The notes under the pieces were generated by a model, which saw only the letters and a list, made by a program, of their open reading frames with translations, made no database searches and had not been told where the DNA came from. Positions 4,693-40,001 of a stretch of DNA of 64,000 nt are shown here, one piece after another (positions within the stretch are counted from its first letter, which is position 1; every line of letters begins with the position of its first letter). Origin of the DNA: Paracoccaceae bacterium (GTDB lineage: Bacteria; Pseudomonadota; Alphaproteobacteria; Rhodobacterales; Rhodobacteraceae); assembly GCA_012103375.1 (NCBI GenBank), contig WLWX01000001.1, positions 3,018,492 to 3,082,491 on the forward strand. The letters are read 5' to 3'. The position numbers and the translations under genes were made by a program.

Positions 4693-4757
4693 TCCAATTC
4701 CCCAATCAAAATACGCCCCTAATAGCCCCACAATGCGCCAACTAAATTAGGATTTGG

Positions 4758-4771
4758 TTAACGATAGTTAA
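4758..4771. promoter_or_regulatory. paired GTTAAC half-sites, CtrA-like but with 6-bp spacing
   Basis: Two TTAAC half-sites separated by six bases lie between the divergent wza-like and manC genes. The CtrA consensus known from Caulobacter and used in Rhodobacteraceae is TTAA-N7-TTAA, so this one is one base short. It is proposed mainly because a perfect N7 pair occurs upstream of the main polysaccharide operon. Confidence 0.3.
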
Positions 4772-4918
4772 CTTCCCCCTCTGACACCGTGCTTCGGTCA
4801 ACCCGGGCTTGCGGGTGGCACGTTTTCGAGCGCGCTGATTGCGGGAACAGTGGTGCGCAGGCAATTGCTGCGCTAAAGAATTTCATACATGTGCAGTGAA
4901 TTGGGTAGCAGGGCAAAG

Positions 4919-6704: not shown

Positions 6705-8164
6705 TGCTGGGGCTGGATGTCAGCGTCACCGGTCTGGTGGCGATGGGCCGCAGCGGTCCGATCGCCCTGCCCGACATCGGATTGCTGGCGGATTGGCGGT
6801 TTGAGGAGGGCAGCGGCTCCACCGTTGCCGATCAGACCGGCAGTCACGCCATCGACCTGACAGCAGCAGCCAGCCCGAACACCGCCTGGCAAGCCTATGG
6901 TCTGAGCGCGGACAACGGCGCGGTGCAGACACCCGTAATCACGGGCGTGCGAACCGTCGCGATGCTTTATCGGGCCAATGCTGGCACCGGCGGGTTCCAC
7001 CACTCGGGGCCGGTGGCGACCAATAAGGGTATATTGGGCAGCGCTGCAAACGGCGCGTCGTTGCAATTGACCGATACGATCCATATCGCGAAGGGCGCAG
7101 GGATCGCACGGGCGTATCGGCGCGACGATACCGGATCGGGCGCGTTCACGCTCAACACCGGCGGCTGGCAAGTGGTGTTCCGCGAGATGGCGAACTCGGC
7201 CAGCGGCAATCTGACATTCGGCGGGCGCGGCGGGACCACGACCAACCGAAATACCTCGTTCGATCTGGGCTGGGCCGGGGTCTATGACCGGGCGCTGGAT
7301 GACACGGATCGCGCCAGGATATTTGCCTTCTGCCGCAGCCTTTTGCGCGCGCGTGGCGGGGGAAATTACGTCGCCTTTGCGGATTGCGCGGTCCAGGCAG
7401 ACGCGCTGATCCTTTGGGGGCAGTCGAATGCTGATGGACGTGCGCTGATCGCTGATCTGTCCGCGTCCAATCAGGCCCGCACCTACACAGAGGCCTATAT
7501 TCTGCAGAATGAGTTCCTGAATGCGACAACGGCGTTTGCGACGCTCGACCTTGGGACAAATCACTGTGATGGCGGTTCGGCCTATTTCGGGGCCGAAGTG
7601 ATCTGGGCGAATCTGCGGCAGGACACACCGACGGGCCGCGATCTCTATATTGAAGAGACAGCGCGCGGGTCGTCGTTTCTGGCGCCGTCCTCGGACGCCA
7701 ATGTCGCCAATGGTGCGTCGTGGTCCGAAGGTGAGTTAGAGACGAATGCGGGCTGGTGGCGGTCCGCATTGCACAACCACTATCTGGCGATCGCGGATGC
7801 TTTGGAGGCGGGCGTCGGACTGAACTGGCGCGGCGTGGGCTGGTGGCAGGGCGAACAGGACGCGATGTTCACCTCGACCGCTGATGTCCATCAGGCAGAG
7901 CTGACGGCGATGGTCGCCTCTTTCGATGCCCATACCGGGCTGGACAGCGTGCCTTGGGTGATTGTGCAGACCAAAGAAACACCGCCAACGAACGCCAGCG
8001 CGGAAACAACGGTGCGCACGGCACAATCATCTGTCGTCAGTGCGCTTGGCGCGCGCGCGACGTTGATCGACGCCTCGGGCTATGGGGTGGGCGGTGATGG
8101 CCTGCATCTGAATGCGACCGGCATGGAGGGTCTGGCCGCAAGCATCTATGCGACGTTGTTCTGA
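6704..8164 (+). CDS. ghsB: GTA head-spike fibre with SGNH / sialate O-acetylesterase-like domain (GhsB family)
   Basis: This 486-residue protein follows ghsA directly and corresponds in position and character to Rcc01080 (GhsB). Residues 1-30 probably anchor it to the base protein. Residues about 25-215 resemble a LamG/concanavalin-type beta-sandwich ([17 protein letters not shown] is a typical entry). The C-terminal half is an SGNH hydrolase: block [10 protein letters not shown] with candidate nucleophile Ser241, block III GWWQGE near 379-384, and block V GDGLHLN with Asp465 and His468. The intact triad suggests the spike can deacetylate a polysaccharide, which is inference. The gene converges on fcl with a 19-bp overlap. 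Confidence 0.8.
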
Positions 8165-9096
8165 TACCAGTCATAGGTCTGCGCGATCCCTTCGCGCAGG
8201 CCGATTTTCGCGCTCCAGCCCAGATCGGCCAGCCGCGCCACGTCGAGCAGTTTTCGCGGTGTCCCGTCAGGTTTGCTGCCGTCAAACGCGATCTGCCCTT
8301 TGTACCCAGTCACCTTGGCCAGCATCGTGGCCAGCTCGCCGATCGAGATATCCTGCCCGGTGCCCACATTCAGAAACCTGCTGCGTGGGTGGGTGGCGCT
8401 GTTCCAATCGGATTTCGGCAGGTCCAGAACATGCAGTGACGCCGCCGCCATATCGTCGACATGCAGAAACTCGCGCTTCGGGGCGCCGCTGCCCCAAACC
8501 TCAACCACGTCATCACCCGCCTGTGCGGCGTGGTGAAACCGCTGCATCAGCCCGGGCAACACATGGCTTTTGACCGGATCGAAGTTGTCGCCGGGACCGT
8601 AGAGGTTCGTCGGCATCACACTTCGATAATCGACGCCGTGCTGAAGATTGTAGCTTTCGCAAAGCTTGATCCCCGCGATCTTGGCGATGGCATAGGGTTC
8701 GTTGGTCAGCTCCAACGGGCCGGTCAGCAGCGCGTCTTCGCGCATCGGTTGCGCCGCATCGCGCGGATAGATGCAGGACGACCCGAGGTTCAGAAGGCGC
8801 GTGACCCCATGGGCATAGGCCTGATGGATCACATTCGCCTCGATCATCAGGTTGTCATAGATGAAATCGGCGGGGTAATCATTGTTTGCCAGAATACCGC
8901 CGACACGGGCGGCGGCCAGAATAACGACATCCGGGCGCTGATCGGCAAAGAACGCAGCTGTCGCGGCCTGATCCTTTAGGTCAAGTTCCGCGTGGCTTCG
9001 GGTGATCACGCTGACACCGGTTCGACCTTTCAACTGTCGTGCGATGGCGCCGCCGACCATGCCGCGATGCCCAGCGAGGAAGATCCGCATGCTCAT
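8146..9096 (-). CDS. fcl: GDP-L-fucose synthase
   Basis: This enzyme converts GDP-4-keto-6-deoxy-D-mannose to GDP-L-fucose by epimerisation at C3 and C5 and NADPH reduction. It is an extended SDR of 316 residues, normal for the family. The nucleotide motif is GHRGMVGGA at residues 9-17; an SSCIYP block carries the catalytic Ser, and YAIAK gives the catalytic Tyr and Lys. It is the last gene of the minus-strand operon and overlaps gmd by four bases (ATGA), so the two steps are coupled. It shows no lesion. Confidence 0.94.
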
Positions 9097-10214
9097 TCCC
9101 CCGCAGCAACTGGCAGATCATAGCCGTGTTCGCGCAGGAAGGCGTGGCGACGCGCATCGGCCAGATCGGTGGCAACCATTTCGGTGCACATCTCACGCGC
9201 CGTGGTCGTCGCAGACCAACCCAGATCGCGTTTTGCGCGCGATGGATCGCCCAACAGAGTCTCAACCTCGGCCGGGCGGAAATAACGCGGGTCGATCCGC
9301 ATGACCACGTCACCAACACTCAGCGCAGGGGCGGCATCGCCAATGATCCCTGCGACCACGGCATGCTCATCCAGGCCATCGCCGCGGAACACCAGCGTCA
9401 GGCCCAGGTCTTCGCCTGCCCATCGGATGAAATCGCGCACGGAATGCTGAACGCCCGAGGCGATGACGTAATCTTTCGGGTCGTCCTGTTGCAGCATCAG
9501 CCATTGCGCCTGGACATAGTCGCGCGCATGACCCCAATCGCGCAAAGCGTCGATATTTCCCATAAACAGACACTTTTCCAGCCCCTGCGCGATCATGGAC
9601 AACCCGCGCGTGATCTTCCGGGTCACGAAAGTTTCGCCCCGTCGCGGGCTTTCATGATTGAACAGGATGCCGTTGCAGGCGAACATCCCATAGGCCTCGC
9701 GGAAGTTCACGCAGGCCCAATAGGCATAGAGCTTGGCAACCGCATAGGGGCTGCGCGGATAGAATGGAGTGGATTCCGACTGCGGTGTCTCGACCACTTT
9801 TCCATAGAGCTCGGACGTTGACGCCTGATAGAATCGCGTTGTCTTTTCCAGGCCAAGGAACCGGATCGCCTCCAACAGGCGCAGCGTGCCAATGGCATCG
9901 ACGTCCGCGGTATATTCGGGCGATTCAAAGCTGACGGCGACATGGGACTGCGCCCCCAGATTATAGACCTCGTCAGGGCGAATGTCCGAAACCAGCCGCG
10001 TCAGGTTTGATGTGTCCGACAGATCGCCATAATGCAGATACAACTGTGGGTTCGCTTCATGGGGATCCTGATAGATATGGTCGATGCGTGACGTGTTCAG
10101 CGATGACGCGCGCCGCTTGATGCCGTGAACTTCATACCCTTTTTCCAGCAACAGCTCGGCCAGAAACGATCCGTCCTGGCCCGTGATGCCGGTGATTAGC
10201 GCGCGTTTGGTCAT
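9093..10214 (-). CDS. gmd: GDP-mannose 4,6-dehydratase
   Basis: This enzyme converts GDP-D-mannose to GDP-4-keto-6-deoxy-D-mannose, the precursor of GDP-L-fucose, GDP-rhamnose or related sugars. The protein is 373 residues, typical for Gmd. It opens with [19 protein letters not shown], followed by HYGDLSD and the catalytic TSELYGKV...[15 protein letters not shown] region with the YxxxK pair. It sits 15 bp downstream of the GT2 stop codon and overlaps fcl. ManC, encoded nearby, supplies its substrate. Confidence 0.95.
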
Positions 10215-10229
10215 CTGCTGGCCCTGTAA

Positions 10230-10972
10230 TCATATATGTATCTGGGGCAACTTGCGCAGGGATTTCAACGCCAGCGCCCCATACCCCCCCATGCCGTTTT
10301 TTCGCAGAACCTGCAAATCCTCTCGGGTGCGGCGGATCAGTTTACGAACCGAACCGTTGCTGAGGCCGCCGCTTCGCATCCGGACCAGAACCTGAGGGAT
10401 GTATCGAACCGCGCCGCCGTCGCTGCGCAACAGACGTATCATCAGATCGTAATCTGCCGAGATCTGGAAGCTGCTGTCATATGGCCCGACTTCCGGCAGC
10501 GCGCTGCGTCGCACAAACAGCGTTGGATGCGGCGGCATCCACCCGCGCCGTAGCCTTCGCGCATCAAAAGCGTGGCTGCGCCATCTGCGGACAATACGAG
10601 TGGGGTCGTGCCGGGAAACATAGTCCAGATCACCGTAAACCACCGCGACCGCCCGATCCTCGAACACTGTTGCGACCTGTTGCAGCACATCGGCGCTGGC
10701 AAAGACATCATCTGAATGGAGGATGCCGACAACCTCGCCAGTGGCCCGCCGGGTTGCTGTGTTCAGCGCGTCGTAGACACCGGCGTCGGGCGACCGGCTG
10801 ACCGTTCTGCCGGATCGGCGCGCGCTGCCAGCAGGTTTGCCGTGGCATCGTCGGTTCCGCCATCCTGAATCAGATGTTCCCAATCGGTGAATGTCTGCGC
10901 ATCCAGGCAATCCAGCGCCGCGCCCAGCACATCCGCGCGGTCCCGCGTGGCTGTCAAAATGGAGATCTTCAT
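10230..10972 (-). pseudogene. family 2 glycosyltransferase, frameshifted
   Basis: The ATG at 10972 overlaps the carbamoyltransferase stop by four bases and begins MKISILTATRDRADVLGAAL, a typical GT2 opening. The frame runs through QTFTDWEHLIQDGGTDDAT to about 10805, where one base is missing. In the next frame it continues as SPDAGVYDALN, HSDDVF (the DxD-type region) and ISADYDLMIRLL to the stop at 10230. Restoring one base gives 247 codons plus stop, as usual for this WcaA-like type. As written the N-terminal piece stops near 10763. Together with the wza frameshift, this suggests either locus decay or residual single-base errors. Confidence 0.83.
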
Positions 10973-12675
10973 GGCGCGGCCCGTTTGACCAGCACATGGC
11001 GCCCAAGCACCAGCGCGTCGAGGTCGGTTCGCAGATAGCAGGCAATGGCCTGCTCCGGGCGGTCGACGATCGGCTCGTTCTCATTAAAACTGGTGTTCAG
11101 GACCATACCGTGACCTGTGCGCGATTTCACCGCGCGAATCAGATGATGAAACAGCGGGTTCGTCGTGGCATCAACCGTGTGCAGGCGTCCGGTTCCGTCC
11201 ACATGGGTCACCGCCGGAAAGCGGTCGCGCCATTTCCGCCGGAACCGCACGACATGCATCATGAAGGGGCTGGTTGTGGGTTGTTCGAAATACTCCGCCG
11301 CATCTTCGGCCAGGACAGAGGGGGCGAAGGGGCGGAAGGATTCGCGCCGTTTGATGCGCGCGTTGATTGTCGCTTTCATGTCCGCGGCGGCGGGGTTTGC
11401 CAGGATTGACCGATTGCCCAACGCCCGCGGCCCCCATTCGCTGCGCCCCTGATACCAGCCAATCACCGCACCATCCGCGATCAGATCGGCGGCCCTTTCG
11501 GCCGCTGCGGCCGGGCTTGGCATCTGTTCCGCGCGCAGACCGGCCTGATCAATTGCGGCGCGAATTTCGGCATCGGAGTATTCCGGCCCCCAGAACGCGT
11601 GTTGCATTCGGAACCGTTCGGTCCGCCCCAACCCGACATGCCAGCAGTGCAGCGCCGCGCCAAGTGCGGTGCCGTCATCAGCGCTTGCCGGTTGGTGGAA
11701 GACTGCCGTGAATTCCGTGTCGCGCGGTATACGCGCGTTCATAACCCCGTTCAGCCCGCACCCCCCGGCAAGGGCCAGTCGGGCGGTTGGGATCAGATCG
11801 TGGGCGCGGCCAAACAGGTGCAACGCCGCCGCCTCAAACCGCAGTTGAACCGACCGCGCAATGTCCTTTTCACGCTGGGTAATCGGGTCATTGCGATGGC
11901 GCGGCGGACCAAACAGATCGGAAATCCTGGTGAAATAGAGACTTGCATTTAGGTTGGCGGCGGGTTTGAGCGCCCCCTCTGCGACCTGCACAAGCTCCCT
12001 TCCCCCGCAGGGCAGGATCTGCTCAATCTCGCGGGCAAACCGATCTTCGCCATATGGGGCAAGACCCATCACCTTATATTCCTCGCCAAACCGGTCAAAT
12101 CCGATGAACTGGCTGAGCGCGGTATAGAAGTGCCCCAGAGAGTGGGGCAGCATAGCCCGCTGACATACCTCGATCCTGTTCCCTTCGCAGCGCGCCACCA
12201 TGGCAGAGGCGAAATCGCCCGATCCGTCATAGGATACCCCCGCTGTCACCGCGTCGAAGTCCGAGGCGAAATAGGCGCTGGCGATATGGGCCAGATGATG
12301 TTCGACCCGGTGAATGCGAAACGTCACGCGCGCCGGGTCTTCGCCGCACATCCGGGCCAGCCCACCAAGACCGACGCGACCGGCACGCTGCCGCCCCAGA
12401 AATCGCCACGCCGCCGATGGGTGGCGCAGCCCATGGCGCAGCTTTGCGGCTGCGTTGGCCCAGGGGTCGCGCGCGACCGCCACATGCCCGACATCGCGCA
12501 ACCGCAGGCCATTCTCCGACAGTAGCCATAGGATCGCGTGTTCCGGGAAGGCATCACTATGTTTGATCCGGGGGCCCAGTCGTTCCTCGGCCACGGCACC
12601 GACAAGCTGACCGTCGATCAGCAGGCAGGCGGCAGCATCCGGGTGATGCGCGTTGAGGCCAAGAATGACGCTCAA
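10969..12675 (-). CDS. carbamoyltransferase, NodU/CmcH family
   Basis: Members of this family transfer a carbamoyl group from carbamoyl phosphate to a sugar hydroxyl through a carbamoyl-adenylate intermediate. The 568-residue protein has the N-terminal ASKHA-like domain (ILGLNAHHPDAAACLL, AVAEERL, then YDGSGDFASA). The C-terminal ATP-binding domain has GWYQGRSEWGPRALGNRSIL. Cytoplasmic location is expected. The substrate is probably a residue of the capsule repeat unit or its nucleotide sugar, judged from its place between glycosyltransferases. It overlaps its neighbours on both sides by four bases. The reading frame is intact. Confidence 0.9.
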   Translation of the reverse strand: MSVILGLNAHHPDAAACLLIDGQLVGAVAEERLGPRIKHSDAFPEHAILWLLSENGLRLRDVGHVAVARDPWANAAAKLRHGLRHPSAAWRFLGRQRAGRVGLGGLARMCGEDPARVTFRIHRVEHHLAHIASAYFASDFDAVTAGVSYDGSGDFASAMVARCEGNRIEVCQRAMLPHSLGHFYTALSQFIGFDRFGEEYKVMGLAPYGEDRFAREIEQILPCGGRELVQVAEGALKPAANLNASLYFTRISDLFGPPRHRNDPITQREKDIARSVQLRFEAAALHLFGRAHDLIPTARLALAGGCGLNGVMNARIPRDTEFTAVFHQPASADDGTALGAALHCWHVGLGRTERFRMQHAFWGPEYSDAEIRAAIDQAGLRAEQMPSPAAAAERAADLIADGAVIGWYQGRSEWGPRALGNRSILANPAAADMKATINARIKRRESFRPFAPSVLAEDAAEYFEQPTTSPFMMHVVRFRRKWRDRFPAVTHVDGTGRLHTVDATTNPLFHHLIRAVKSRTGHGMVLNTSFNENEPIVDRPEQAIACYLRTDLDALVLGRHVLVKRAAP

Positions 12676-13988
12676 CTGCCCGGCCCAGCCAAAAGCGCTT
12701 CGATCTGGTCAAGGCGGGCGGCATAGCTGGCCGCCAATGCGGTTTCGATCCGGCGTTTGTACAGGCATTCGGACCCAGGTGCGGTCAGCAACTGGCCCAG
12801 CATATCCGGCATCGCTGAATTACTGCCTCGTTCGGCCATCGTGACCAGATCGTTTTCGGCCCAGTTTGCCAGCCACGATGTCAGGATCGGCGCGCCGGTC
12901 GACAGATACTCCAGCATCTTGTGGGTGTCGGTTGGCCCGCCCTGTACCTGTTCGTTGAATGCAATCAGCCAGACCGCAACCTTGTCGCCCAGCGCGGCAA
13001 TCTGTTCGGGCAAAAGCCGCCCGGTGAAGATGCAGTTTAGCGCGTTCTGGAGTGCTGCGAACGCGGGTGACGGCGCAAGCCGGGGCAGCGGGCCGATTAA
13101 GCGGAAGGTCACATCCGGAAATCGCCTTACCAAGTCCAGAATAACCGGCCAGTCGATCCAGATGGCGCAGAGGTTTCCAACCATCGCCACTTCGCCGCCC
13201 GTAGCGGTCGTTCCATTTCGCAATCGCCGCTGCGCCGCGCGCGCATGGACCGGGGACAGACCATGGCCAATCACAGGTACCGCGCACCGTGCACCGGATT
13301 TTGCCATGAAATCAGCATGCAGCGCGGCCAGCCTTGTGGCGTGTTTGGTCCCAACCGAGGGGCGCGACGGCGCATCGACCAGATGAAACAGAGACTGTTT
13401 TGCCCCAAACGCGCGCAGATCCGAAAATTGCCCGGTGTTGTCGAAATCCCAGATCAGATCGGCAGGGCCACCCAACGCTCTGGCAATCAGCCGGGCCTGC
13501 CGATGCATGGCGATATCGAACAGGCGCGGCGCGTGAAACTTCATGCGATAGGGAAACCACGTGCCATAGCGAACACACTCGATACCGCTGACGCCCGTTG
13601 CAATACGGCGAATGCCCCTGCCACCGCCCGGCGGCCCGATGAAGGACACACGACAGCCCCGCGCGGCAAGTTCGCGCGCGTAGTAATGTTTCGACACCGG
13701 CAGGCCGTCCCAGTGCTGAGGTGAGATCAGCCGATTGTGTTGAAAAACTCCGTTTTAGGGCCTGAACGATGATTTTTCTTTCCATGCAGCCCGATCCTAA
13801 ATTTTTGGCGCGGGGGTCGGCCCAAATCGCCTACATGCGCTCACGCGCAGCCATGCGCTGTCTCGTGGTCAAAGCTTTCCGACTATTTCGCTTCATAGGT
13901 TTTCGCAAGAAATCCGCGACGCTCTGATTTCGGAGTTTTTCAACACAATCAGCCAGATGCGGGCACCGGGTTTGAACAGGCAACTCAC
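12672..13988 (-). pseudogene. glycosyltransferase (family 1/4 type) interrupted by a 218-bp MITE
   Basis: The longest open stretch (13697 down to 12672) lacks a proper N-terminus. Reading past the insertion restores it: the 38 bp from the GTG at 13988 to 13951 encode SCLFKPGARIWL and join to ISPQHWDGLPVSKHYYAREL once the element at 13733-13950 and one AGCC copy are removed. The joined gene is exactly 364 codons plus stop, and its GTG overlaps the preceding acyltransferase stop, like the other junctions of this operon. The C-terminal half has the GT-B donor-site pattern (GPTDTHKMLEYLSTGAPILTS). The short N-terminal piece stops inside the element, so normal product is unlikely. Confidence 0.85.
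13733..13950. mobile_element. MITE-like element, copy 1 (218 bp)
   Basis: The element has perfect 20-bp terminal inverted repeats (GATTGTGTTGAAAAACTCCG) and is flanked by a 4-bp direct repeat AGCC (13729-13732 and 13951-13954). It carries no transposase gene. It appears base-for-base identical to copy 2 at 14906-15123 and has the same orientation. The TIR shares the core TGTTGAAAAACTCC with the left end of the IS1182-like element at 43896, so that IS family may have mobilised it. It disrupts a glycosyltransferase gene. Confidence 0.9.
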
Positions 13989-14638
13989 AAGTTCAACTCG
14001 GCGGCGCGGAAAGCGGCAAACTCGGCCTGCGGGATATAGCCGTGATAGATATGCGTGGCGGGGCGTATCCTGCAATCTGCGGGGTCCAATCGGCGGATGA
14101 TTCGCGCGGGGTTGCCCGCGATGACAGCATGGCCATCCGGGACATTTTTCGTGACGATCGCACCCGCACCGACCGTGGTGAAATCGCCCAGAGCCACTCC
14201 AGGCAGAACCACAGCCCCGGCCCCGATCCAGCAACCGCGTCCGATGGTGATCCCGCCAGGCTCATGCTGTGCCAGATCGGTTGGCACATGATTCTCGGAT
14301 ATCAGGCAGACGTTCGGCCCGATCCGGGTGTAATCACCGATGCGGATTGGTGACAGCGCCTGAATGTAACATCCCGGCATATAGCCCGGCGCGACCTCGG
14401 CCCCGCACAGCACATTGCGCCACCGGGTCACACGGCTGCTGCGATGCACCGGCCAATAGGGTCCGCGGTTAATGCCGCGCACTTCTTGATCGAACCACAT
14501 GCCAAAGCTGATCGGCGTCGCGCTGTCCGCAGTTTCGGCGATGAAGCGAAACCGGGGCAGGCGCGTGCAGACAACCTCGGCCAGTCGCAGCGGTGAACGC
14601 CAGATGCGCCGCGCGATAGGTGCATTTTGCCCGGTCAT
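13985..14638 (-). CDS. hexapeptide-repeat (LbetaH) acyltransferase
   Basis: This protein of about 217 residues transfers an acyl, probably acetyl, group to a sugar in the cytoplasm. The C-terminal half shows left-handed beta-helix repeats of the [LIV]-G-x4 type (IRIGDYTRIGPNVCLI, ITIGRGCWIGAGAVVLPGV, VGAGAIVTKNVPDG) and closes with VIAGNPARIIRR, as in WbbJ/NodL-type acetyltransferases. The ATG at 14638 overlaps the wzx stop by four bases. A longer in-frame extension to 14998 runs into wzx and the MITE and was rejected. If the polymer is O-acetylated, this enzyme is the best candidate for the step and GhsB a candidate for the reverse. Confidence 0.88.
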   Translation of the reverse strand: MTGQNAPIARRIWRSPLRLAEVVCTRLPRFRFIAETADSATPISFGMWFDQEVRGINRGPYWPVHRSSRVTRWRNVLCGAEVAPGYMPGCYIQALSPIRIGDYTRIGPNVCLISENHVPTDLAQHEPGGITIGRGCWIGAGAVVLPGVALGDFTTVGAGAIVTKNVPDGHAVIAGNPARIIRRLDPADCRIRPATHIYHGYIPQAEFAAFRAAELNL

Positions 14639-16098
14639 GGCCCGCAAACCCGCAGTCCGGCGACGAAGTAAACGCAATAGACCAGGGAATAGGCGAAGCT
14701 GAATCCGGCGATCACGCCCAGCGCCGTCGCCCCTGAAAGCATCGCTGCGACGACGCAGCCTCCGATCAGTGCAGCCGCCCCTAGCGACAGCGCGAACGCC
14801 ATTTTCTGCCGCCCGGTGATCTGAAAAACCGACGACACGGGCGAGACTGCAAGCCGCAGCAACAGCATCGGCGCGAGGATCCGCGCGAATTGCCCGGCCT
14901 CGGCCGATTGTGTTGAAAAACTCCGTTTTAGGGCCTGAACGATGATTTTTCTTTCCATGCAGCCCGATCCTAAATTTTTGGCGCGGGGGTCGGCCCAAAT
15001 CGCCTACATGCGCTCACGCGCAGCCATGCGCTGTCTCGTGGTCAAAGCTTTCCGACTATTTCGCTTCATAGGTTTTCGCAAGAAATCCGCGACGCTCTGA
15101 TTTCGGAGTTTTTCAACACAATCGGCCCATTGCGGCCCGAGGTAGAGCGTGAAGACCGCAGGCGCCGCCCAGATTAAAGCGGCGCAGGGAAGCAGCCCGA
15201 CCAGAAACACCCCGACAGCCGTGTTCAGGTACAGGGTCCGGCAACTTCCAGTGTTGCGCCAAGCCACCGCTGCTTCGGCGCGAAACACTTGCCCGACGGA
15301 CGCGCCGATCAGTGTTATAGGCAGGCCTGCAAGTCGCCGCGCCCGGGAAAATGCGCCCAGCGCTGGCCCCGCGCCAAGGGTCGCCAATGCGAAAACGGGC
15401 AGGTGCTGGTTCCAGCTGCCGACCAACTCGGACGGCAAGGTGAACTGGGCAAAGCGGCGATGTCGCACGGCGACCACATGCATGCGTCGAAGCGATGGCC
15501 GCTTACCCGGTAGCTCTGTCCGCCAAAGATGCATCCCAAAACCAAGGGTGACAAGCTGACCCGTCAGATAGCCAGCGAAAAGCCCGGCCTGCCCCCACCC
15601 CAAGATACCGCACAGGAGGGAAACCACGACAATCCCCGCTGTGCTGCTCACCTGCAGGCGTGCCAGAAATCCGTATCGGCGCGCGCGGTTCGCCAGGGTG
15701 GTCAGCGCCGCCATCGCGCCTGCGATCGCGACGGTGATCGGCAGCAGCCACAACCAGCCAACCGCCACATTGATAAGTGAGGCAAGACTCAGCGCGACAA
15801 GAAGGCCCAGGGCCAGACAGATCGCCAGACCAAAGCAGAGCCAGACCAGCGCCCGCGCCGCCTGTTCTGAGCGCGCCGCAATGATCCCATGGTGCATCTG
15901 CAGCGCGGCCACAACGCTCAGTATTCCGGTCGCGGCCATAAACAATGCCAGCGCGCCATAATCCGCCGGGGAGTAAAGCCGCCCCAGCAGTGGTGCCGCC
16001 AGGATCGGCAACACCAGCGCCACCGCCTGCCCGGTGCCAAGCCGCGCGACATTGCCAATGAACGCCCGTTGCGGCCGGGCAATCAGTGGCACGCTCAA
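14635..16098 (-). pseudogene. Wzx-type polysaccharide flippase interrupted by a 218-bp MITE
   Basis: This multispanning inner-membrane protein would flip the lipid-linked repeat unit. From the ATG at 16098 (MSVPLIARPQRAFIGNVARL) about ten hydrophobic segments are visible up to TLYLGPQWA, where the element at 14906-15123 enters. The reading frame continues on the other side as EAGQFARILAPMLLL and two or three more membrane segments to the stop at 14635. Removing the element and one GGCC copy gives exactly 413 codons plus stop. In its present state the N-terminal part ends in 38 element-encoded residues. The C-terminal part is open in frame with an ATG inside the element (MERKIIVQALKRS), so a detached C-terminal fragment could be made. 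Confidence 0.88.
14906..15123. mobile_element. MITE-like element, copy 2 (218 bp)
   Basis: This is a second copy with the same perfect 20-bp inverted ends as copy 1. It is flanked by the 4-bp direct repeat GGCC (14902-14905 and 15124-15127). It lies in wzx, about 1.2 kb from copy 1, in the same orientation. By eye no base differs between the copies, which indicates very recent movement. Element plus one target repeat is 222 bp (74 codons), so only internal stops, not frame, disrupt the host gene. Confidence 0.9.
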
Positions 16099-17297
16099 CG
16101 GATCGCTCGCTTAAGTTCAGGCTCTGAATCGCCGAAAAACCGTTGATTTCTGGCGTGATCAGAGGCAATGGAACGATAAACTCTCGTGAATTTCCCGGCG
16201 ATCCGGGGCCATCCGAATTCCCGCGCGATCCGGCCCGGTGTGCGGTCCGCAATACGCCGACACCGCGCAGGATCGGACAGCAGCCCGCGCAACGCATGGG
16301 CCAGGGCGTCCGGCGTTCGATCAACAACGCAGCTCGCAACGAGTTCCGCAACAACAGGCGAGATTCCGACGCCGGGCGTCGTGATGACCGGCGTTCCAAC
16401 GTCCAGCGCCTCGGCCACTGCGATGCCAAAGCTTTCGTGCAGCGACGGCGCGACCAGAACATCCGCGCCTGCCAGAAATGCCCATTTCGCCGCATCATCC
16501 AGCGGTCCGACAAACTGCACCCCCGGCCCGACCAGACCCGCATTGGTCAAGGCCGCGCGCAGCCCGATGGGATCCGGCCCGGCGATTCGCAACTGGGTGC
16601 CTCCCACCAGCGCTGCCGCCTGAAGCACAAGATCGACGCCTTTCATCCGGTCCAGCCGCCCAAGAAACGCCACGCGCCGCCCCTGCGGAACACCCTTCCA
16701 GATCGGACTGGCCGACAGCGGCAACGCAGGTGGGTCGATGCCATTTCCGATCACGTGAACCGGGCGAAGATCGAGGGCGAGTGAGCGTATACCGCACGCC
16801 TCGCCCTCCGACGTTGCGTGGATCGCCCCGGCAGTCGCCAGCAGACGCCGTTCGAACCCCGCGATCCACAGGCGTTTCGCCAGCGCCGATTTTCCGGCGA
16901 TCAGATCGCGTTGCAGCATCCCGCGCGGCGAGGTCACATAAGGCACGCCCGCGCGCCGCGCCAATCGTGCCAGCGCAGGCCCGGGCCAGAGGTAGCAGCC
17001 ATTCAGATGCAGCACATCGGCATCGGCCAATGCCGCAGAAACTGATTTGGCCATTGCCGGGCAAAAATACAGCCGATGCGGCGGGCGTGTCGCGAAATAG
17101 CGAACTGTCACGCCATCCACATCCAGCGGAGTATCCAACGGCACATCCGACCGATCCGGCCCGTCAACATCGGTGGTGAACACCTGCACCCTGTGGCCTG
17201 CCTTCACCAGCGCCTTTGCCAGACCATGCCCCGATCGGATTGGGCCGCCATAGCGGGTGGCGGGCAGATAGTTCGGCATATAGAGCAGGATATTCAT
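16095..17297 (-). CDS. family 4 glycosyltransferase
   Basis: This 400-residue GT-B enzyme probably adds one sugar to the lipid-linked repeat unit on the cytoplasmic face. The acceptor domain opens NILLYMPNYLPATRYGGPIR, with a glycine-rich loop. The donor domain shows FLGRLDRMKGVDLVLQAA and the E-x7-E-type motif (PSLHESFGIAVAEALDVGTP) near residue 300. It overlaps wzx and the next gene upstream by four bases each. Donor and linkage cannot be told from sequence alone. Confidence 0.9.
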   Translation of the reverse strand: MNILLYMPNYLPATRYGGPIRSGHGLAKALVKAGHRVQVFTTDVDGPDRSDVPLDTPLDVDGVTVRYFATRPPHRLYFCPAMAKSVSAALADADVLHLNGCYLWPGPALARLARRAGVPYVTSPRGMLQRDLIAGKSALAKRLWIAGFERRLLATAGAIHATSEGEACGIRSLALDLRPVHVIGNGIDPPALPLSASPIWKGVPQGRRVAFLGRLDRMKGVDLVLQAAALVGGTQLRIAGPDPIGLRAALTNAGLVGPGVQFVGPLDDAAKWAFLAGADVLVAPSLHESFGIAVAEALDVGTPVITTPGVGISPVVAELVASCVVDRTPDALAHALRGLLSDPARCRRIADRTPGRIAREFGWPRIAGKFTRVYRSIASDHARNQRFFGDSEPELKRAIR

Positions 17298-18418
17298 GAC
17301 CGATGCCCGATCGCCTGCTCATAAAACACGCGATGCTTGGCGGCAAAGGCCTCAAAGCCGAAGCGTTCTTCGGCGACGTGTCGGGCCGCGCGGCGCGCCG
17401 CTTTGACGGGCTGGTTCAGGACTTCGGCCAAAGCGGCGACATAGGCGCACGGATCCCGGGGTGAGATTACGCGCCCGTTGCGGTCCGCATCCACCGCCTC
17501 ACAAGAGCCATCTTCGTTTCCCACGATTGCCGGGACTCCGCAGGCCAATGCCTCGATCGGGGTCAGGGGCAACCCTTCGCCCCGGTTATAGCCCTTGTCA
17601 GATACAAGCGCGAAAACCCGCGCGGCGCGATAGATGTCCGGCAGATCAGCCTCGTCCACGGATCCAATAAAGCGGCAGCATCCGTTTAGCCCGTGCTGAT
17701 TGGCCACCCCCTCAAGCCGGGCGCGATCTGTGCCATCACCAGCGATGACAAGGCGCGCATCTGGGTGATTCAGGGTCGAAAACGCCGAGATCATCCGGTC
17801 GAACCCTTTGTGGCGCGAATCCTGCGCCAATCGCCCCAACGACAGGATGATCGGCCTGTCAAAGCTGGACGCGAGTCCATAGCGCGACAGAACCTTCGGG
17901 TCCGCCGCCCCCGGGGAGAACCGCGCAAGGTCGACACAATCCCAGATCACGGTGGCCGGTTCAGGATGCATCGCCCCACGCTGCAGATGATCGGCTGTCG
18001 AATAGCAATCGGCGATGACATGGTTGCTGCAATAAAGCGCGCGACGTCGCCGGTGGCTGAGATCCCCCCAGACCTCGCGCCCATAAACATTCAGAATCGT
18101 CCGCGCCCCGGTGAAACGGGCCAGATGTGCGGCCAGCGGGCCGAGGTTCACGTGGGCGGCGTGAATCACATTGGGACGCCAGGTCAGCGCTTGGCGAATG
18201 GCCTGGGCGACCATGGCGGCCCGGCTGCACAGGTTTGGCCGGGTGCTGTGCCAGAACACATCGAAGGGATCCTCGAAACTGTCAGCATCCGGCCCGGCGA
18301 GGGACAGGACACGCAGATCCGCAAACTCCGCCATTGCCTTGATCTGATAACGGCCATACCGGCTGATCCCGCCCTTATCGAAAACTCCGGGGGTTAGGTA
18401 GAGGATGCGCGCGCTCAT
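17294..18418 (-). CDS. family 4 glycosyltransferase
   Basis: This 374-residue GT-B protein opens ARILYLTPGVFDKGGISRYG and has the donor-site signatures LSLGRLAQDSRHKGFDRMI and GEGLPLTPIEALACGVPAIV (E-x7-E). The acceptor-side VNVYGREVWGDL-like stretch (LNVYGREVWGDLSHRRRRAL) is typical of capsule and O-antigen transferases. It overlaps both neighbours by four bases in the operon. It is intact; the sugar specificity is unknown. Confidence 0.9.
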   Translation of the reverse strand: MSARILYLTPGVFDKGGISRYGRYQIKAMAEFADLRVLSLAGPDADSFEDPFDVFWHSTRPNLCSRAAMVAQAIRQALTWRPNVIHAAHVNLGPLAAHLARFTGARTILNVYGREVWGDLSHRRRRALYCSNHVIADCYSTADHLQRGAMHPEPATVIWDCVDLARFSPGAADPKVLSRYGLASSFDRPIILSLGRLAQDSRHKGFDRMISAFSTLNHPDARLVIAGDGTDRARLEGVANQHGLNGCCRFIGSVDEADLPDIYRAARVFALVSDKGYNRGEGLPLTPIEALACGVPAIVGNEDGSCEAVDADRNGRVISPRDPCAYVAALAEVLNQPVKAARRAARHVAEERFGFEAFAAKHRVFYEQAIGHRS

Positions 18419-19536
18419 GCCGCGTCCCGCAGGTCATCATTGCGGATACCTACCAACAGCGGTGCGAATGCCGCTTCATAATTGTACGCTGTCCGGTGCA
18501 GGTTCGCTGCGCGCGCGCCTTCGGACCGCAGCGCGTCAGGGTCTTGCGCATAGTGGTGCACCAATCGCGCAAGCGCCGCGGCTGAATAGGTTTCAAGGCA
18601 TCGCCCGATGCGCTGGCCTTCCAGCAAATCCGCAACGCCCGGATTGCGATCTCCGATCTGCGCCAACCCGACCTGCATATATTGATAGCGCTTGTTGCTG
18701 GCCCCCAGCGCGGTGCGAAACTGCACCGGCGCGTCATCCAGAAGGCACAGCCCCAGATCGGCCTGCGCCAGCCTTTCGGGAAGTTCTGCAAGATCAACCC
18801 AGCCGGTAAAGCGGATACGCCGGGAAAGCCCCGCGTCCCGTACCTGCGCCTGCAGCGCGCGTCCCAACCCGGTCTCGCATTCCCCGATCAGCGTCAGCCG
18901 GGTGTCGGCAGGCCACAAAGGCACAGATGCAAGGATCAGCGGCAGATTCTGACCCCTTCCCAGCACGCCGCAATACAACACCTCCAACCCGGGGCGTGTG
19001 GTCGGTTTGCGCGGCGGCGCGCACAAAAGCGGATAGTTCGGCACCACCAGCGGTGCCGCGCGCAGGTCCAGTTGTTGCAACAACGCCTGGCCGCGCCCTT
19101 CATCGGGAACGACGACGCGGCTGAACCCTTTGATCGCGGTTCGCATCCGCCGTTCAATCCATCGCCCGGACGAAAGCGATTCATGGAAATGCGCTATACG
19201 CTGAGGCGGCTTTTGCGGCGCCAGATCGCTGTAGAGCATCGCCAGCGGGTCATAGGCGATTTCAACGTCAAGCTTGCGATTGCGGCGTGCGTTCGTGATC
19301 GCGCGAACGAATGAAATCAGTCTCTGAATCCGCGCAACTTGCCCAAATCCGGTTTTCGGTTCGCACAATGTGACGACCGTTACCCCCGGTTCGTTAAACC
19401 TCACCTGGCCCGTGTGTCGGCGTGCCGTCGTCACCAGAGTTACGGAATACCCCTCCCGCGCCAGAAGCCGGGCCTGCGCTTGTACGGGTGGATAACCATC
19501 CACCGGCGGTGGAGAGATCAGCAGCGGGCGCCGCAT
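18415..19536 (-). CDS. glycosyltransferase (GT4-like)
   Basis: This is a protein of about 373 residues. The start at 19536 (MRRPLLISPPPVDGYPPVQA) was chosen because its ATG overlaps the wzy stop by one base. A longer frame to 19674 would lie inside wzy and is Arg/Asp-rich nonsense. The N-terminal domain has the YPPVQAQARLLAREGYSVTL pattern of GT4 acceptor domains. The C-terminal half contains EVLYCGVLGRGQNLPLIL and a degenerate donor motif (GASNKRYQYMQVGLAQIG). It belongs to the same repeat-unit assembly operon. Confidence 0.82.
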   Translation of the reverse strand: MRRPLLISPPPVDGYPPVQAQARLLAREGYSVTLVTTARRHTGQVRFNEPGVTVVTLCEPKTGFGQVARIQRLISFVRAITNARRNRKLDVEIAYDPLAMLYSDLAPQKPPQRIAHFHESLSSGRWIERRMRTAIKGFSRVVVPDEGRGQALLQQLDLRAAPLVVPNYPLLCAPPRKPTTRPGLEVLYCGVLGRGQNLPLILASVPLWPADTRLTLIGECETGLGRALQAQVRDAGLSRRIRFTGWVDLAELPERLAQADLGLCLLDDAPVQFRTALGASNKRYQYMQVGLAQIGDRNPGVADLLEGQRIGRCLETYSAAALARLVHHYAQDPDALRSEGARAANLHRTAYNYEAAFAPLLVGIRNDDLRDAA

Positions 19537-20882
19537 CAGATTGTGCGCATTCTGCGGGGGCGACGCAGCATCGCGCCAAGCGCCGTCATCCCGATATAGG
19601 CCATCGCAGCCGACGCCGCGACGAAGATCATCATCGACGAAGGCGCAATCAGCGCGACGCCGATCGTGAACCACTTGAGAAATCCGAACAGATCACACCC
19701 TGCCAGTGACATCGCGGCGCGGCGGTCCAGCCAGCGCAGGCAGAACCCCAGGATCACGCATCCCAAGAAGATGCCGGAATAGCCGAAATTCACGTAGAAC
19801 TCGATGATCGGACCGACCCCGAACGTTGAGCTTTCCGAGAAGACGCGCCCGGTGTGCTCGGCCATGAAGGTGCTGCCGCCCATCTCGGGCTTGCCGGGCC
19901 ACAGGACGCGCGGCACCCAGGCCAGCAGGACGACCCACAGCGTTGCGCCGTGTTGGCGTAACTCCGGGTGGTGGCCGTGCCGTTCGATCACTTTGCCGAC
20001 CATCATGGTCTGGTTCAGCCGGATGTTGATCCAGTCCAATGCTGCGGGGCTGGCAGGCCAGGCCCATTCGATGCCAGCCAGCGCCTGTGCCAGGACTGCC
20101 CAGCGCGCTGACCAGGTTCCGCCTGTCCAGATGACGCCGCGAATTTCGGACCGGAACGACATCCAGGCGACGAACAGCATCAACAGAAGGTAAAGCGTCG
20201 CCACCCCTAACAGGACAAGTTTCCAGCGCGCCAATCGCCTGGGACGCAGAACGCTGATACAAAATCCGGCATAGATTGTCAGGACAACGAAACCGTAGGA
20301 CACGAACCCCCAGACCAACAGGAAATACGCGGGCAGCAATCCACCAATCATTGCCCAGGTCCACAGGGGCCGCCCACGCGCCACCGCGATTGCCGCCCCA
20401 AGGCAGACACAAGCGACCGCCATGTTGCGGGTGACCTGCAGGATGGCCGCCGACATCGGAAAGCTGACGCGCGATGCATGCAGAACCAACCCGATTGCCG
20501 CGATCCCGCCCATGAACCACAGCAGCTGAGAGGCATGTGCCGTGTTGGTTCGGGTGGGCAGCGGCTTTGCCGCAACGCGCCGCGGCGCGAAAGCACCACA
20601 GCCCAGCGCAAACCCAGCCAGCCCCAGCAAGCTGGCCATCAGCCCGGTCAGGACTGTCGATCCGGTGAAATCCAGTGTGCGCAGGTACCAATGACCATCA
20701 GGGCGCAGGTGATCGTATGCGGGCAGGGCGTATACGAAGGCTCCGCCATACATGAAGCTGACCGCAAACAGCCAGGCAGCAGGCAATCCGACGCTGCCGG
20801 CGCCAATTGTGCGCGACACGACACGCGCCACCAACCAGACCCAGCCGAGCGCGCAAATTGTGAACAGCATCGGTTCAGACAT
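19536..20882 (-). CDS. Wzy-type O-antigen/capsule polymerase
   Basis: This 448-residue membrane protein has about eleven hydrophobic segments and a large extracytoplasmic loop (roughly residues 255-350, with GATLWVVLLAWVPRVLWP and STFMAEHTG). Wzy proteins join repeat units at the periplasmic face and are too divergent to call by motif. The call rests on topology and on its place in a cluster with Wzx, glycosyltransferases and a Wzc-like kinase. An oligosaccharide-repeat polymerase of the oligo_alt type is the main alternative. It overlaps the DegT gene by eight bases. Confidence 0.7.
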   Translation of the reverse strand: MSEPMLFTICALGWVWLVARVVSRTIGAGSVGLPAAWLFAVSFMYGGAFVYALPAYDHLRPDGHWYLRTLDFTGSTVLTGLMASLLGLAGFALGCGAFAPRRVAAKPLPTRTNTAHASQLLWFMGGIAAIGLVLHASRVSFPMSAAILQVTRNMAVACVCLGAAIAVARGRPLWTWAMIGGLLPAYFLLVWGFVSYGFVVLTIYAGFCISVLRPRRLARWKLVLLGVATLYLLLMLFVAWMSFRSEIRGVIWTGGTWSARWAVLAQALAGIEWAWPASPAALDWINIRLNQTMMVGKVIERHGHHPELRQHGATLWVVLLAWVPRVLWPGKPEMGGSTFMAEHTGRVFSESSTFGVGPIIEFYVNFGYSGIFLGCVILGFCLRWLDRRAAMSLAGCDLFGFLKWFTIGVALIAPSSMMIFVAASAAMAYIGMTALGAMLRRPRRMRTI

Positions 20883-22020
20883 GACCCACGCTCGCGTGCT
20901 GTGCGGAGGCTGTGCATCGGGCGACCTCTTCGGTCACGATGGCGCAGATGCGGGCAATGTCTGCGTCCTGAAGGTCGGCATAGGTCGGCAGGTTCAGACC
21001 GCGCCCCGAAATGGCGTGGGCAACCGGTGTGTCCGCCGTGGGCAGGAACGGCATCGCCGACATCGGGTTGAAATAGGGCCGGGTGTCCACACCGCGCGCG
21101 CGCAGCCGGTCCGCAAGCCGATCCCGATCCGGTGCGGCAAACCCGTCAACCTCCAGGCAGACCATCCAGCAGGCTGGGCTGGTTCCGGCAACCGAACGGT
21201 TGAGCGTCAGCCCGGGCCGCTTGCCCAGATACCGACGATAGCTGCGCACGACACGACGGCGCGCGCCCTTCATCTGTTCGGCGCGGGCCATCTGGCCACA
21301 GCCAATGGCGGCCTGAAGATTGGTCATCCGATAGTTGAAGCCCGGTTCATCATGCCAATAGCGCCGATCAGGTGACATTGCATGATCGCGCAAATGCCGC
21401 AGGCGGGCGGCAAGCGCGCTGTCGTTCGTGGTGATCATCCCGCCTTCACCGGTGGTCAGGCATTTGTTCGTATAGAAACTGAAGGCTGCGCAGGTGCCCC
21501 AACCACCGACCCGCCGGGTGCCAATTGCCGCGCCATGCGCCTCGGCCGCGTCTTCGATCACCACCAAACCATGGTCCCGGGCAATCCGGTTGATCGCCAC
21601 CATGTCGGCGCGCTGACCGTACAGATGCACCGGAATGATCGCGCGGGTCTTCGTGGTGATCAGTGGGGCAAGGGCCGCCGGGTCCAGGCACAGGGAGTGC
21701 GGCTCGATCTCTGCGCAAACGGGTGTTGCCCCGGTCATCAGTACCGCGTTCGCGGTCGCAATGAACGACAGATCGGGCACAATAACTTCGTCGCCACGAC
21801 CGATGCCCAATGCATGCAATGCCAGATGCAGCGCTGCGGTTCCGCTGCTGACGGACACGGCATGATCGGTGCCGCAGAATTCGGCGAACTCGGCCTCGAA
21901 TCGGGTTACGAAGCTGCCCAGGGACGAGATCCAGCCAGAGGATACGGCCTCAAACACGTATGCCATCTCCAGCGAGCCCAGCGAGGGGCGAGAGACGGGG
22001 TATTCCGGTTCACCACTCAT
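20875..22020 (-). CDS. DegT/DnrJ/EryC1/StrS family aminotransferase
   Basis: This PLP enzyme would aminate a 3- or 4-keto nucleotide sugar, giving an amino sugar for the repeat unit. Visible signatures are SSGTAALHLALHALGIG, the VIEDAAEAHGA block (Asp against the PLP nitrogen) and FSFYTNKCLTTGEGG with the Schiff-base lysine. The start at 22020 (MSGEPEYPVSRPSLG) gives 381 residues and a four-base overlap with the upstream gene. The longer frame to 22197 overlaps that gene and is not protein-like. Perosamine- or viosamine-type synthases are close relatives; GDP-4-keto-6-deoxymannose from Gmd is a plausible substrate. Confidence 0.9.
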   Translation of the reverse strand: MSGEPEYPVSRPSLGSLEMAYVFEAVSSGWISSLGSFVTRFEAEFAEFCGTDHAVSVSSGTAALHLALHALGIGRGDEVIVPDLSFIATANAVLMTGATPVCAEIEPHSLCLDPAALAPLITTKTRAIIPVHLYGQRADMVAINRIARDHGLVVIEDAAEAHGAAIGTRRVGGWGTCAAFSFYTNKCLTTGEGGMITTNDSALAARLRHLRDHAMSPDRRYWHDEPGFNYRMTNLQAAIGCGQMARAEQMKGARRRVVRSYRRYLGKRPGLTLNRSVAGTSPACWMVCLEVDGFAAPDRDRLADRLRARGVDTRPYFNPMSAMPFLPTADTPVAHAISGRGLNLPTYADLQDADIARICAIVTEEVARCTASAQHASVGHV

Positions 22021-23003
22021 GCGGCCTCCAGAATGCGGGTCAGGCGGTGTTGATAGGTGTGTTCGGCGCTGGCCCGGGCCAGACCTGCGGCGCGGATGTT
22101 TCGGGCCCATCCCGGATTGCTGCGCGCGTGGTCCAGATGGCCCAGAATGTCGTCGATCGAGCGATAGGTCAGGACTTCGTGATCGGGCGCGAAGCAATCC
22201 GCAACAATGGCGCGATCTTCGATAAGTTGCAGACCACCCGCGCCGCAGATTTCAAATGCGCGGCAATTGAGCGAGTCGCCCTCGGCCAGTGATGTCGAAT
22301 TCAGGCAGGCCAGTGCGCCTTCGAAGACCTGCGATTTCTGCTGCTTTACCAGATATGTTCCGCGATGCAGGTCGCGAAGCGACCGGTCCCCCCAGCGGGG
22401 AAGTGGCGGGCCATAAAGCGCCTGCGGCACACCCTTCGCGGCCAATCGAGCGGCCAGCGCCTGCCGGTATCCATAGAAGTTGCCGACCACGGCAACGTCT
22501 GGCACTGACTGCGCCCCCTGCGGGCAATGCCAATCCGGGTTCATCGCTTCATGGGTCAGTTGTGCTGGCAGGCCCAGCGCGCGGAACCGTCCCACGGCGG
22601 CCCGGTCTTTCAGATGGATCGCGTCCCATTCATCGCTCAGCAGGCCCATGGTGCGCATGTTGGCGGGGGGATCGCCCCACCAGGCGATGCGTCGGATGCC
22701 CAGACGACCAACCTCGGCCAAAGCGTCGTCGCGCAGGGCCTGCGTCATGCACAACAGCACATCGGGCCGCAGCGCGCGGGCGGCTGCCACGGCCCAGCGC
22801 TCAGCCCGTGTCCAGAACTGCGGGAACGCGGATTGCGCCGCACGTCCTGCACCATCGAGGATCGGACGCCGGGATCGTCCGAACGGACGCGGCGCGCAGG
22901 TCACGCGATGCCCCATCTGTTGCAGGCAATGGGCGACATTGTCGACAAACCCGTCCGGTGACGGGAAATTCGGAATAAGAATATGCAGCGCCGCACCACT
23001 CAT
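22017..23003 (-). CDS. CgeB-like glycosyltransferase
   Basis: This protein of about 328 residues opens GAALHILIPNFPSPDGFVDN. The middle reads RRIAWWGDPPANM and the C-terminal half NCRAFEICGAGGLQLIEDRA, the pattern of the CgeB/Glyco_trans_1_2 family of GT-B enzymes. The ATG at 23003 was taken; a GTG at 23015 is equally possible. It lies just downstream of the UDP-sugar dehydrogenase and overlaps the DegT gene by four bases. Its acceptor is unknown, but the context is repeat-unit assembly. Confidence 0.75.
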   Translation of the reverse strand: MSGAALHILIPNFPSPDGFVDNVAHCLQQMGHRVTCAPRPFGRSRRPILDGAGRAAQSAFPQFWTRAERWAVAAARALRPDVLLCMTQALRDDALAEVGRLGIRRIAWWGDPPANMRTMGLLSDEWDAIHLKDRAAVGRFRALGLPAQLTHEAMNPDWHCPQGAQSVPDVAVVGNFYGYRQALAARLAAKGVPQALYGPPLPRWGDRSLRDLHRGTYLVKQQKSQVFEGALACLNSTSLAEGDSLNCRAFEICGAGGLQLIEDRAIVADCFAPDHEVLTYRSIDDILGHLDHARSNPGWARNIRAAGLARASAEHTYQHRLTRILEAA

Positions 23004-23022
23004 CCCCGGGACCACAGGCGCA

Positions 23023-24363: not shown

Positions 24364-24499
24364 ATCTTCCCCTTCCCCCCCGTCGGCACCCCGCCCCCAC
24401 GGGGGTTTCGGCGAACACGCGGCGACTGCGGGCCATCGGAAATCCTCCGGTCCGCGCCACGTATTCGACGCTGCCATCTTCTGTGGTGGGGCCATTGAG

Positions 24500-24515
24500 T
24501 TAACAGACGGTTAAC
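24500..24515. promoter_or_regulatory. CtrA-like TTAA-N7-TTAAC site upstream of the capsule operon
   Basis: A perfect TTAA-N7-TTAAC pair is followed six bases later by a third TTAA (24521-24524). It lies in the 231-bp gap between the epimerase stop (24595) and the dehydrogenase start (24363). CtrA is the cell-cycle and GTA master regulator in alphaproteobacteria, so operon expression may be tied to it. No -35/-10 pair could be assigned with confidence. Confidence 0.5.
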
Positions 24516-24594
24516 ATCCGTTAATTGAATCTTAGCGCAGCCCGATCACGGCGGGGTTGCACCAGGGTTGTGGCCGGGGGGCCGCCGGATCGGA

Positions 24595-25638
24595 TCAGCT
24601 GTGCGCAGACCAGTCGCGGTACCATGCAACGAATTGGGCGATGCCTGTGGCGATGTCCGTATTCGGGCGATACCCGGTAAGGTGCTGCAACAGACTGGCA
24701 TCGGCCCATGTGGCCGGGACATCGCCCATCTGCATCTCCATAAGGTTTCGCTGGGCCTTGCAGCCAAGCTCGGCCTCGATCGCGTCGATGAAGTCGGACA
24801 GGCGCACCTTGTCGGAATTGCCGATGTTCACGACCCGCCAGGGCGCAACCGGGCTGAGGCTTTCACCCGGGTCGATCTGCGTGGCATCATCAAGGCGCAC
24901 TGGCACGACATCAATCAGCAGACGGATCGCGCGTGCTAGATCGTCAACATAAGTGAAATCGCGCCACATCTCGCCGTGATTGTAGACGTCGATCGGCTGG
25001 CCCTTGCTGATCGCGTCGACAAATTTGAACAGGGCCATGTCGGGCCGGCCCCAAGGGCCGTAGACGGTGAAAAACCGGAACATCGTGGTCGGAATGTTCC
25101 ACAGGTGGGCATAAGAATGACTCATCCCCTCGGCCGCTTTCTTGGTCGCCGCATACAGCGTCAGCGGCAGGTCGGCCTTATGCGTTTCGCCGTAGGGCAT
25201 TTCGGTATTCGCGCCGTAAATACTGCTGGTTGACGCCATGAGGAGGTGCGCCACTTTCAGTTCCCGCGCGACCTCCATCACATTGAAAGTGCCGACCAGA
25301 TTGGCATCGACATAGGCGCGCGGGTTTTCAAGGCTGTAACGAACCCCGGCTTGCGCGGCGAGGTGGACGATCACATCGGGGGCAAACTCGGCCACGATAT
25401 TCCGCAGGCTGTCGGCGTCTTCCAGCATCGCTTCCGTGGCCGAAAACCCTTCGGATTGCAGCAACATGGCATGGCGGCGCCGTTTCAGGGCGACGTCATA
25501 GTAATCCGTCATCCCGTCATACCCGTGCACCCGAAACCCATCGTCCAGCAGGGTCCGGGCAAGGTGATATCCGATAAATCCGGCAGTACCGGTGACAAGA
25601 ACCCGTGTACCGGGCGGAAATGGAGGCTTTCGCATCAA
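24595..25638 (-). CDS. UDP-glucuronate 4-epimerase (LpsL-like), NAD-dependent
   Basis: This extended SDR of 347 residues interconverts UDP-glucuronate and UDP-galacturonate. It has the NAD motif TGTAGFIGYHLA near residues 16-27, the DGMTDYYDVALKRRR segment characteristic of GlcA epimerases, STSSIYG and the catalytic YAATKKAAE pair. It has its own spacing from the downstream operon (231 bp) and may be transcribed separately. Together with the UDP-sugar dehydrogenase it suggests an acidic polymer. Confidence 0.9.
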   Translation of the reverse strand: MMRKPPFPPGTRVLVTGTAGFIGYHLARTLLDDGFRVHGYDGMTDYYDVALKRRRHAMLLQSEGFSATEAMLEDADSLRNIVAEFAPDVIVHLAAQAGVRYSLENPRAYVDANLVGTFNVMEVARELKVAHLLMASTSSIYGANTEMPYGETHKADLPLTLYAATKKAAEGMSHSYAHLWNIPTTMFRFFTVYGPWGRPDMALFKFVDAISKGQPIDVYNHGEMWRDFTYVDDLARAIRLLIDVVPVRLDDATQIDPGESLSPVAPWRVVNIGNSDKVRLSDFIDAIEAELGCKAQRNLMEMQMGDVPATWADASLLQHLTGYRPNTDIATGIAQFVAWYRDWSAHS

Positions 25639-39924: not shown

Positions 39925-40001
39925 GGCTGATCCTCCCGCTTGTTGAGAGGATTGAATCAGCGCCATAGCCCTCGATCAAGCAGGAGTTTTTCAACAAAAT
40001 T
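39670..40001 (-). mobile_element. IS1182-like element, 5' fragment (332 bp)
   Basis: This is the reverse-strand left end of the same element that is complete at 43896-45430. It has the outer terminal repeat (AATTTTGTTGAAAAACTCCT on the minus strand, ending at 40001) and the first 85 codons of the transposase. It is cut off exactly at the IS3 right end (39669). The encoded part appears identical to the full copy, so the truncation is recent. Confidence 0.88.

Follow-up and report, generated by a model that had tools for sequence, protein, structure and literature searches.

Two promoters of a capsule locus in a Paracoccaceae genome carry arrays of TTAAC half-sites that are, quite probably, real ancestral CtrA boxes of this locus, orphaned by recent mobile-element decay. 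The boxes are conserved in a congener and their spacers are enriched in the genome, while ctrA is absent from the assembly and divL is broken. Both arrays lie in a window of 64,000 nucleotides, the whole stretch of DNA that was analysed (contig WLWX01000001.1 of assembly GCA_012103375.1; the present genome, G000), and the comparison was made with one congener, G001.

The first array, TTAACGGATGTTAACCGTCTGTTAAC, has the form TTAAC-N5-TTAAC-N6-TTAAC and is located at 24499-24524 on the minus strand, the coding strand of the 14-gene capsule operon, upstream of ugd. Its core box, TTAACCGTCTGTTAAC (24499-24514, minus strand), is a CtrA-type pair, TTAA-N7-TTAAC, with the consensus reported in PMC4046655. 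The site thus has the TTAA-N7-TTAA(C) form and the 11-bp period of a CtrA box. The sequence-only reading had described such a pair, together with a third TTAA, ahead of the operon, and this is what is found: the plus strand at 24500-24524 reads TTAAC-AGACGG-TTAAC-ATCCG-TTAA, in which TTAA-N7-TTAA (TTAACAGACGGTTAA, 24500-24514) is the single occurrence of this pattern in the window and the third TTAA forms a TTAA-N6-TTAA pair (24511-24524), one of two such pairs in the window. The TTAAC triple occurs once in the whole genome of 4.02 Mb, and since its half-sites are 10 and 11 bp apart, all of them fall on one face of the helix. The array is situated in a gap of ~230 bp, assuming a GTG start of ugd near 24366, between ugd and an NAD-dependent epimerase gene (24595-25638, 84% identical in G001), both on the minus strand. 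Reading the ugd array by eye, we did not see the CenR motif TGA-N8-TGA, and no sigma-70-like promoter was found adjoining this array or the one described next. A second conserved block is found at 24456-24475, ~25 bp downstream of the ugd array; its G001 version, GGCGGCAGCGTC, bears a faint likeness to the ops element of enterobacterial capsule leaders.

The second array, GTTAACGATAGTTAAC (4757-4772), reads TTAAC-N5-TTAAC on both strands and lies between a wza-like polysaccharide export gene (3526-4692, minus strand; PF02563 and SLBB; 76% identical in G001) and a manC-like mannose-1-phosphate guanylyltransferase gene (4889-6331, plus strand, with a start that may be at 4919; 86% in G001). The 6-bp-spaced pair that had been noted between these two genes is indeed present, as TTAA-N6-TTAA at 4758-4771. 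Here the spacing of the sites is 10 bp and not the 11-bp period of the ugd site, and the array is ~66 bp from the ATG of wza (4692). Directly before manC, the present genome and G001 also share a conserved block, TAAAGAATTTCA (4874-4885).

The TTAA-N6/7-TTAA pairs of the window are confined to these two capsule promoters. All 14 genes of the leftward series that begins with ugd and ends with fcl were confirmed to be present: the first, a ugd-like UDP-glucose/GDP-mannose dehydrogenase gene with PF03721, PF00984 and PF03720 (23023-24366, minus strand; the GTG start near 24366 is uncertain), is followed by the remaining capsule operon (8146-23015, minus strand), which encodes glycosyltransferases, an aminotransferase, Wzy, Wzx, an acetyltransferase, a carbamoyltransferase, Gmd and Fcl. 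One of the 14 genes (12672-13697) had no Pfam match, and PDB searches with two window proteins gave no match. The sequence-only reading had proposed that a GTA spike pair could share the control of the capsule genes, without giving coordinates for this pair; in those open reading frames of the window that were scanned, neither Pfam nor PHROGs identified a spike family.

In order to judge these pairs against background, they were counted in the window, in dinucleotide shuffles of it and in the whole genome. For the window, the shuffles give an expectation of 0.05 TTAA-N7-TTAA (mean of 100 shuffles, with at least one in 5/100), and TTAA-N6-TTAA is observed twice against a shuffle mean of 0.09, with two or more in 0/100 shuffles. 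The genome-wide scan gave 13 TTAA-N7-TTAA, so that the pair alone, not being very rare, is weak evidence; the reversed control pattern gave 31. The counts of the pair across 81 genomes were too noisy to separate those bearing ctrA from those without it. The spacing of complete TTAAC half-sites is more informative. Counted by hand, with palindromic sites (present on both strands) taken once, the genome has 24 distinct TTAAC-Nk-TTAAC pairs for k = 0-20, seven of them at k = 6 and five at k = 5, and the remaining 12 scattered over the other 19 values of k (binomial p 9e-5 for k = 6, 0.005 for k = 5 and 5e-7 combined). The enrichment persists when the three pairs of the window are removed (9/21 at k = 5-6, p 7e-5). 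It is weaker in G001, where k = 6 and k = 5 account for five and three of 23 pairs (8/23 combined, p 9e-4), or for 5/20 (p 0.04) when its three capsule pairs are left out. Under a uniform TTAAC density, the chance expectation of the triple in the window is ~3e-7 per strand. Several further N5/N6 sites in the genome are without an obvious CtrA-type gene, and in a scan of spacers N0-24 the dominant repeat among the matches listed was the end of an IS630 element.

The same type of box is found at genes of the CtrA relay itself. A box in the divL promoter, TTAACCCGCTGTTAAT, is identical in the present genome and in G001 and is placed within a strongly conserved block, and the ctrA box of G001, GTAACCTGCAATTAAC, has the form GTAAC-N6-TTAAC. 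The gene called divL in G001 encodes PAS domains only; this name is our assumption from the PAS-only architecture, no model having given it. A further pair common to both genomes precedes a GT2/MshEN glycosyltransferase gene, which itself follows a gene that we take to be carA-like from its N-terminus. The GTAAC-N6-TTAAC form is that of the Rhodobacter capsulatus ctrA promoter (PMC6363796), and in Dinoroseobacter shibae, where the consensus is TTAA-N7-TTAAC, CtrA sites were predicted at divL and ctrA (PMC4046655). In a comparative study (PMC2877005), CtrA sites are also predicted at divL, and in its cluster B, which on our own reading corresponds to the Rhodobacterales, CtrA controls itself, CckA and DivL, the latter without a kinase domain. 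Given the spacing, the conservation in the congener and the same box at divL and ctrA, the capsule sites are best taken as CtrA boxes, as had been proposed from the sequence.

In order to evaluate how far the boxes are conserved, we scanned for Ugd proteins using one genome per species, retained the best 80 loci and read 500 bp upstream of each (367 bp for L064). The nearest locus, L025, comes from an uncultured Rhodobacteraceae MAG (K_MB387) with a Ugd 80% identical, and is apparently the congener G001 itself, judging from identical contig positions. It carries the triple at the same place, with 24 of 26 bases identical, and in 20-bp alignment windows the identity is 0.80-0.90 over the array and 0.25-0.85 elsewhere in the gap. 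The wza/manC pair is also retained in G001, as GTTAACGAATATTAAC, amid poorly alignable DNA. As one congener was compared, "conserved" refers here to a single species pair. The comparison of orthologous promoters had a divided outcome, with both sites kept in G001 and no such retention further afield. Among the best 80 ugd loci, TTAA-N7-TTAA occurs in four (L025, L069, L088 and L089) and the triple in L025 alone, the other 79 lacking it. Matches to Wza at E-value ≤ 1e-60 were obtained in 71 of 295 family genomes, and in the 30 of these 71 loci that were read a TTAA-N6/7-TTAA pair is present only in the present genome and its congener, and in none of the other 28. A family-wide capsule box was not seen in these loci and is rejected.

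The triple pattern was also searched in 394 family genomes and found in 25, against seven for the reversed control (our own count). In the 23 triple-bearing genomes other than the present one and its congener, none of ugd, the epimerase gene, wza, divL, ctrA or sciP was found within the locus (≤ 3 kb), and these genomes thus lend no support to a capsule rule. In five of the 23 (L124, L129, L130, L132 and L136), the triple stands 35-70 bp before a gene for a staphylococcal-nuclease-like protein (PF00565), which, as seen in these five other genera, is a possible CtrA-type target.

Conservation of CtrA is reported to be almost universal among the Alphaproteobacteria (PMC9836097). Using the Caulobacter CtrA as query at E-value ≤ 1e-45, 70 of 81 genomes gave a match, including 44 of 48 other family members, and the CtrA of G001 is 73% identical to the query. 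The present genome has no CtrA at this threshold (best match 122 bits, 34%), and a search with the CtrA of the congener again retrieved none, in an assembly of two contigs that is 99.96% complete. With the CtrA equivalog model NF045991 of NCBIfam (cut-off 350), the G001 protein scores 420, and the three best regulators of the present genome 155, 150 and 145. The G001 ctrA neighbourhood is syntenic with contig C1:3847500-3852700 (L111) of the present genome, where sciP is followed by an IS630 copy, a remnant of 66 bp, an unrelated segment of ~0.8 kb and another IS630 copy. The remnant comes from the old sciP-ctrA spacer and retains its GTAAC-N6-TTAAC box, and the point at which it meets the unrelated segment falls in unique sequence and outside any repeat. 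The suggestion in the sequence-only reading that CtrA could control the capsule genes is consequently not supported for this organism, whose assembled genome encodes no CtrA and whose ctrA locus is replaced by IS630 copies.

The divL gene has in-frame stops introduced by a 230-bp insert, so that DivL is not intact; the sciP and chpT frames are open, and ChpT (PF10090) is present in both genomes. No match to the flagellar rod family was obtained in either of them. At E-value ≤ 1e-45, four family members gave no CtrA match, namely G009 (82% complete), G034 (74%), G015 (98%) and G030 (97%), and the high completeness of the last two indicates that loss of ctrA may have occurred more than once. A search of titles and abstract openings found no published case of natural ctrA loss, which is no proof of absence. 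According to a review (PMC8116508), bacteria of this kind survive the loss of the CtrA relay genes, which makes a ctrA-less member plausible.

Mobile elements are abundant in this genome. The 3' end of IS630 was found, by hand count, in at least 53 places and in mixed orientations in the first 2.13 Mb of contig C1, which amounts to more than 50 copies in one half of the genome, with none found in the 64 kb window. Divergence among the copies compared is ≤ 0.3%, in keeping with a recent burst. One IS630 copy splits the gene of another OmpR-type response regulator (C1:1992300-1994600, L211), with the N-terminal match at 1992588-1992842 and the C-terminal part beyond the element. Within the capsule operon there are two copies of a MITE-like element, one of 230 bp with inverted ends of 19-23 bp at the Wzx gene (14903-15132) and the other at 13728-13954, and both are 99-100% identical to the insert that breaks divL. 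The copy at 14903-15132 ends a Wzx-like frame (15004-16098) early, and a hydrophobic frame of ~88 residues resumes beyond it; the Wzx flippase gene thus appears to be split by the element. No Wzx orthologue was found in the G001 stretch compared. Inverted ends similar to those of the MITE-like element occur at 39983 and also at 43896, next to a transposase gene (43931-45358).

Several other explanations can be considered. That the TTAA pairs are due to chance, or to AT-rich promoter DNA in general, is in line with the genome-wide excess of the reversed control pattern and with the shuffles, in which a window expectation of 0.05 still reached one occurrence in 5/100. Nevertheless, this account is scarcely credible in view of the spacer enrichment, the conservation at two promoters and the low chance expectation of the triple, and a chance origin was rejected. 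It is also very unlikely that CtrA exists in the living organism and is missing from the assembly, as a result of a lost plasmid or of misassembly at IS copies: the many near-identical IS630 copies could mislead assembly, but ctrA is nowhere in two contigs of such completeness, the junction of the remnant is not in a repeat, and divL was broken independently.

It is rather unlikely that the boxes are read, by takeover or from the start, by a different protein, such as another OmpR-type regulator, MucR/Ros, or SciP with a partner. In favour of a different reader, the boxes are nearly intact despite the missing ctrA, several further OmpR-type regulators and an intact sciP are encoded, and the promoter of hvyA, a capsule gene of Caulobacter, is shared by CtrA and MucR (PMC4241560). 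However, boxes of the same type also stand at divL and in what is left of the sciP-ctrA spacer, which points to CtrA itself, and retention is likewise expected after a recent loss, as indicated by the small divergence of the IS630 copies. CenR was rejected as the reader, since its motif, TGA-N8-TGA (PMC9275681), is absent from the element and differs from the TTAAC repeats. It is improbable that, after a recent natural loss of CtrA, the boxes were kept because another regulator now reads them, with part of the CtrA regulon passing to a new master in one step.

Our preferred reading, of ancestral CtrA boxes that lost their regulator recently, would work as follows. In the common ancestor, and presumably still in the congener, CtrA~P molecules would have occupied adjacent half-sites along one face of the helix; with such sites upstream of ugd and in the wza-manC gap, capsule synthesis and export could have been tuned together. 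In a ctrA-bearing relative, ugd and wza/manC may be switched jointly, with the capsule tied to the CtrA programme. That CtrA bound the boxes is our inference, and it may have acted there as an activator or as a repressor, no sigma-70-like promoter having been seen next to them. In the present genome, an IS630 insertion, with a replacement linked to it, would have removed ctrA, while divL was disrupted by a small mobile element. The boxes would thereby have lost their reader and are probably now unused, as relics of a recent loss.

The capsule boxes share with known Rhodobacterales CtrA boxes (R. capsulatus ctrA and gafA; D. shibae divL, cckA and ctrA) the TTAAC half-sites and the 11-bp period, as well as the GTAAC-N6-TTAAC form at ctrA and divL as a target, and the wza box is at ~66 bp before the start codon, compared to 65-71 for the R. 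capsulatus gafA box (PMC6363796). They differ in having capsule export and synthesis genes as targets, a third half-site at 10 bp and a missing regulator gene. With the Caulobacter CtrA/MucR-hvyA system (PMC4241560) they have in common a CtrA-type control tied to capsulation, but there the route is through the restriction factor HvyA, whereas here the boxes are directly at ugd and wza/manC. The CenR regulon of R. sphaeroides (PMC9275681) also combines an OmpR-type tandem direct repeat with cell-envelope genes, its TGA-N8-TGA motif being different from the TTAAC repeats of the capsule boxes. The R. capsulatus GTA is reported to need the capsule for attachment (PMC10218006). With ctrA lost to insertion sequences and its boxes still recognisable, this genome represents a natural knock-out caught early, which allows one to ask what becomes of a regulon once its master goes, and whether the capsule drops out of GTA-linked control.
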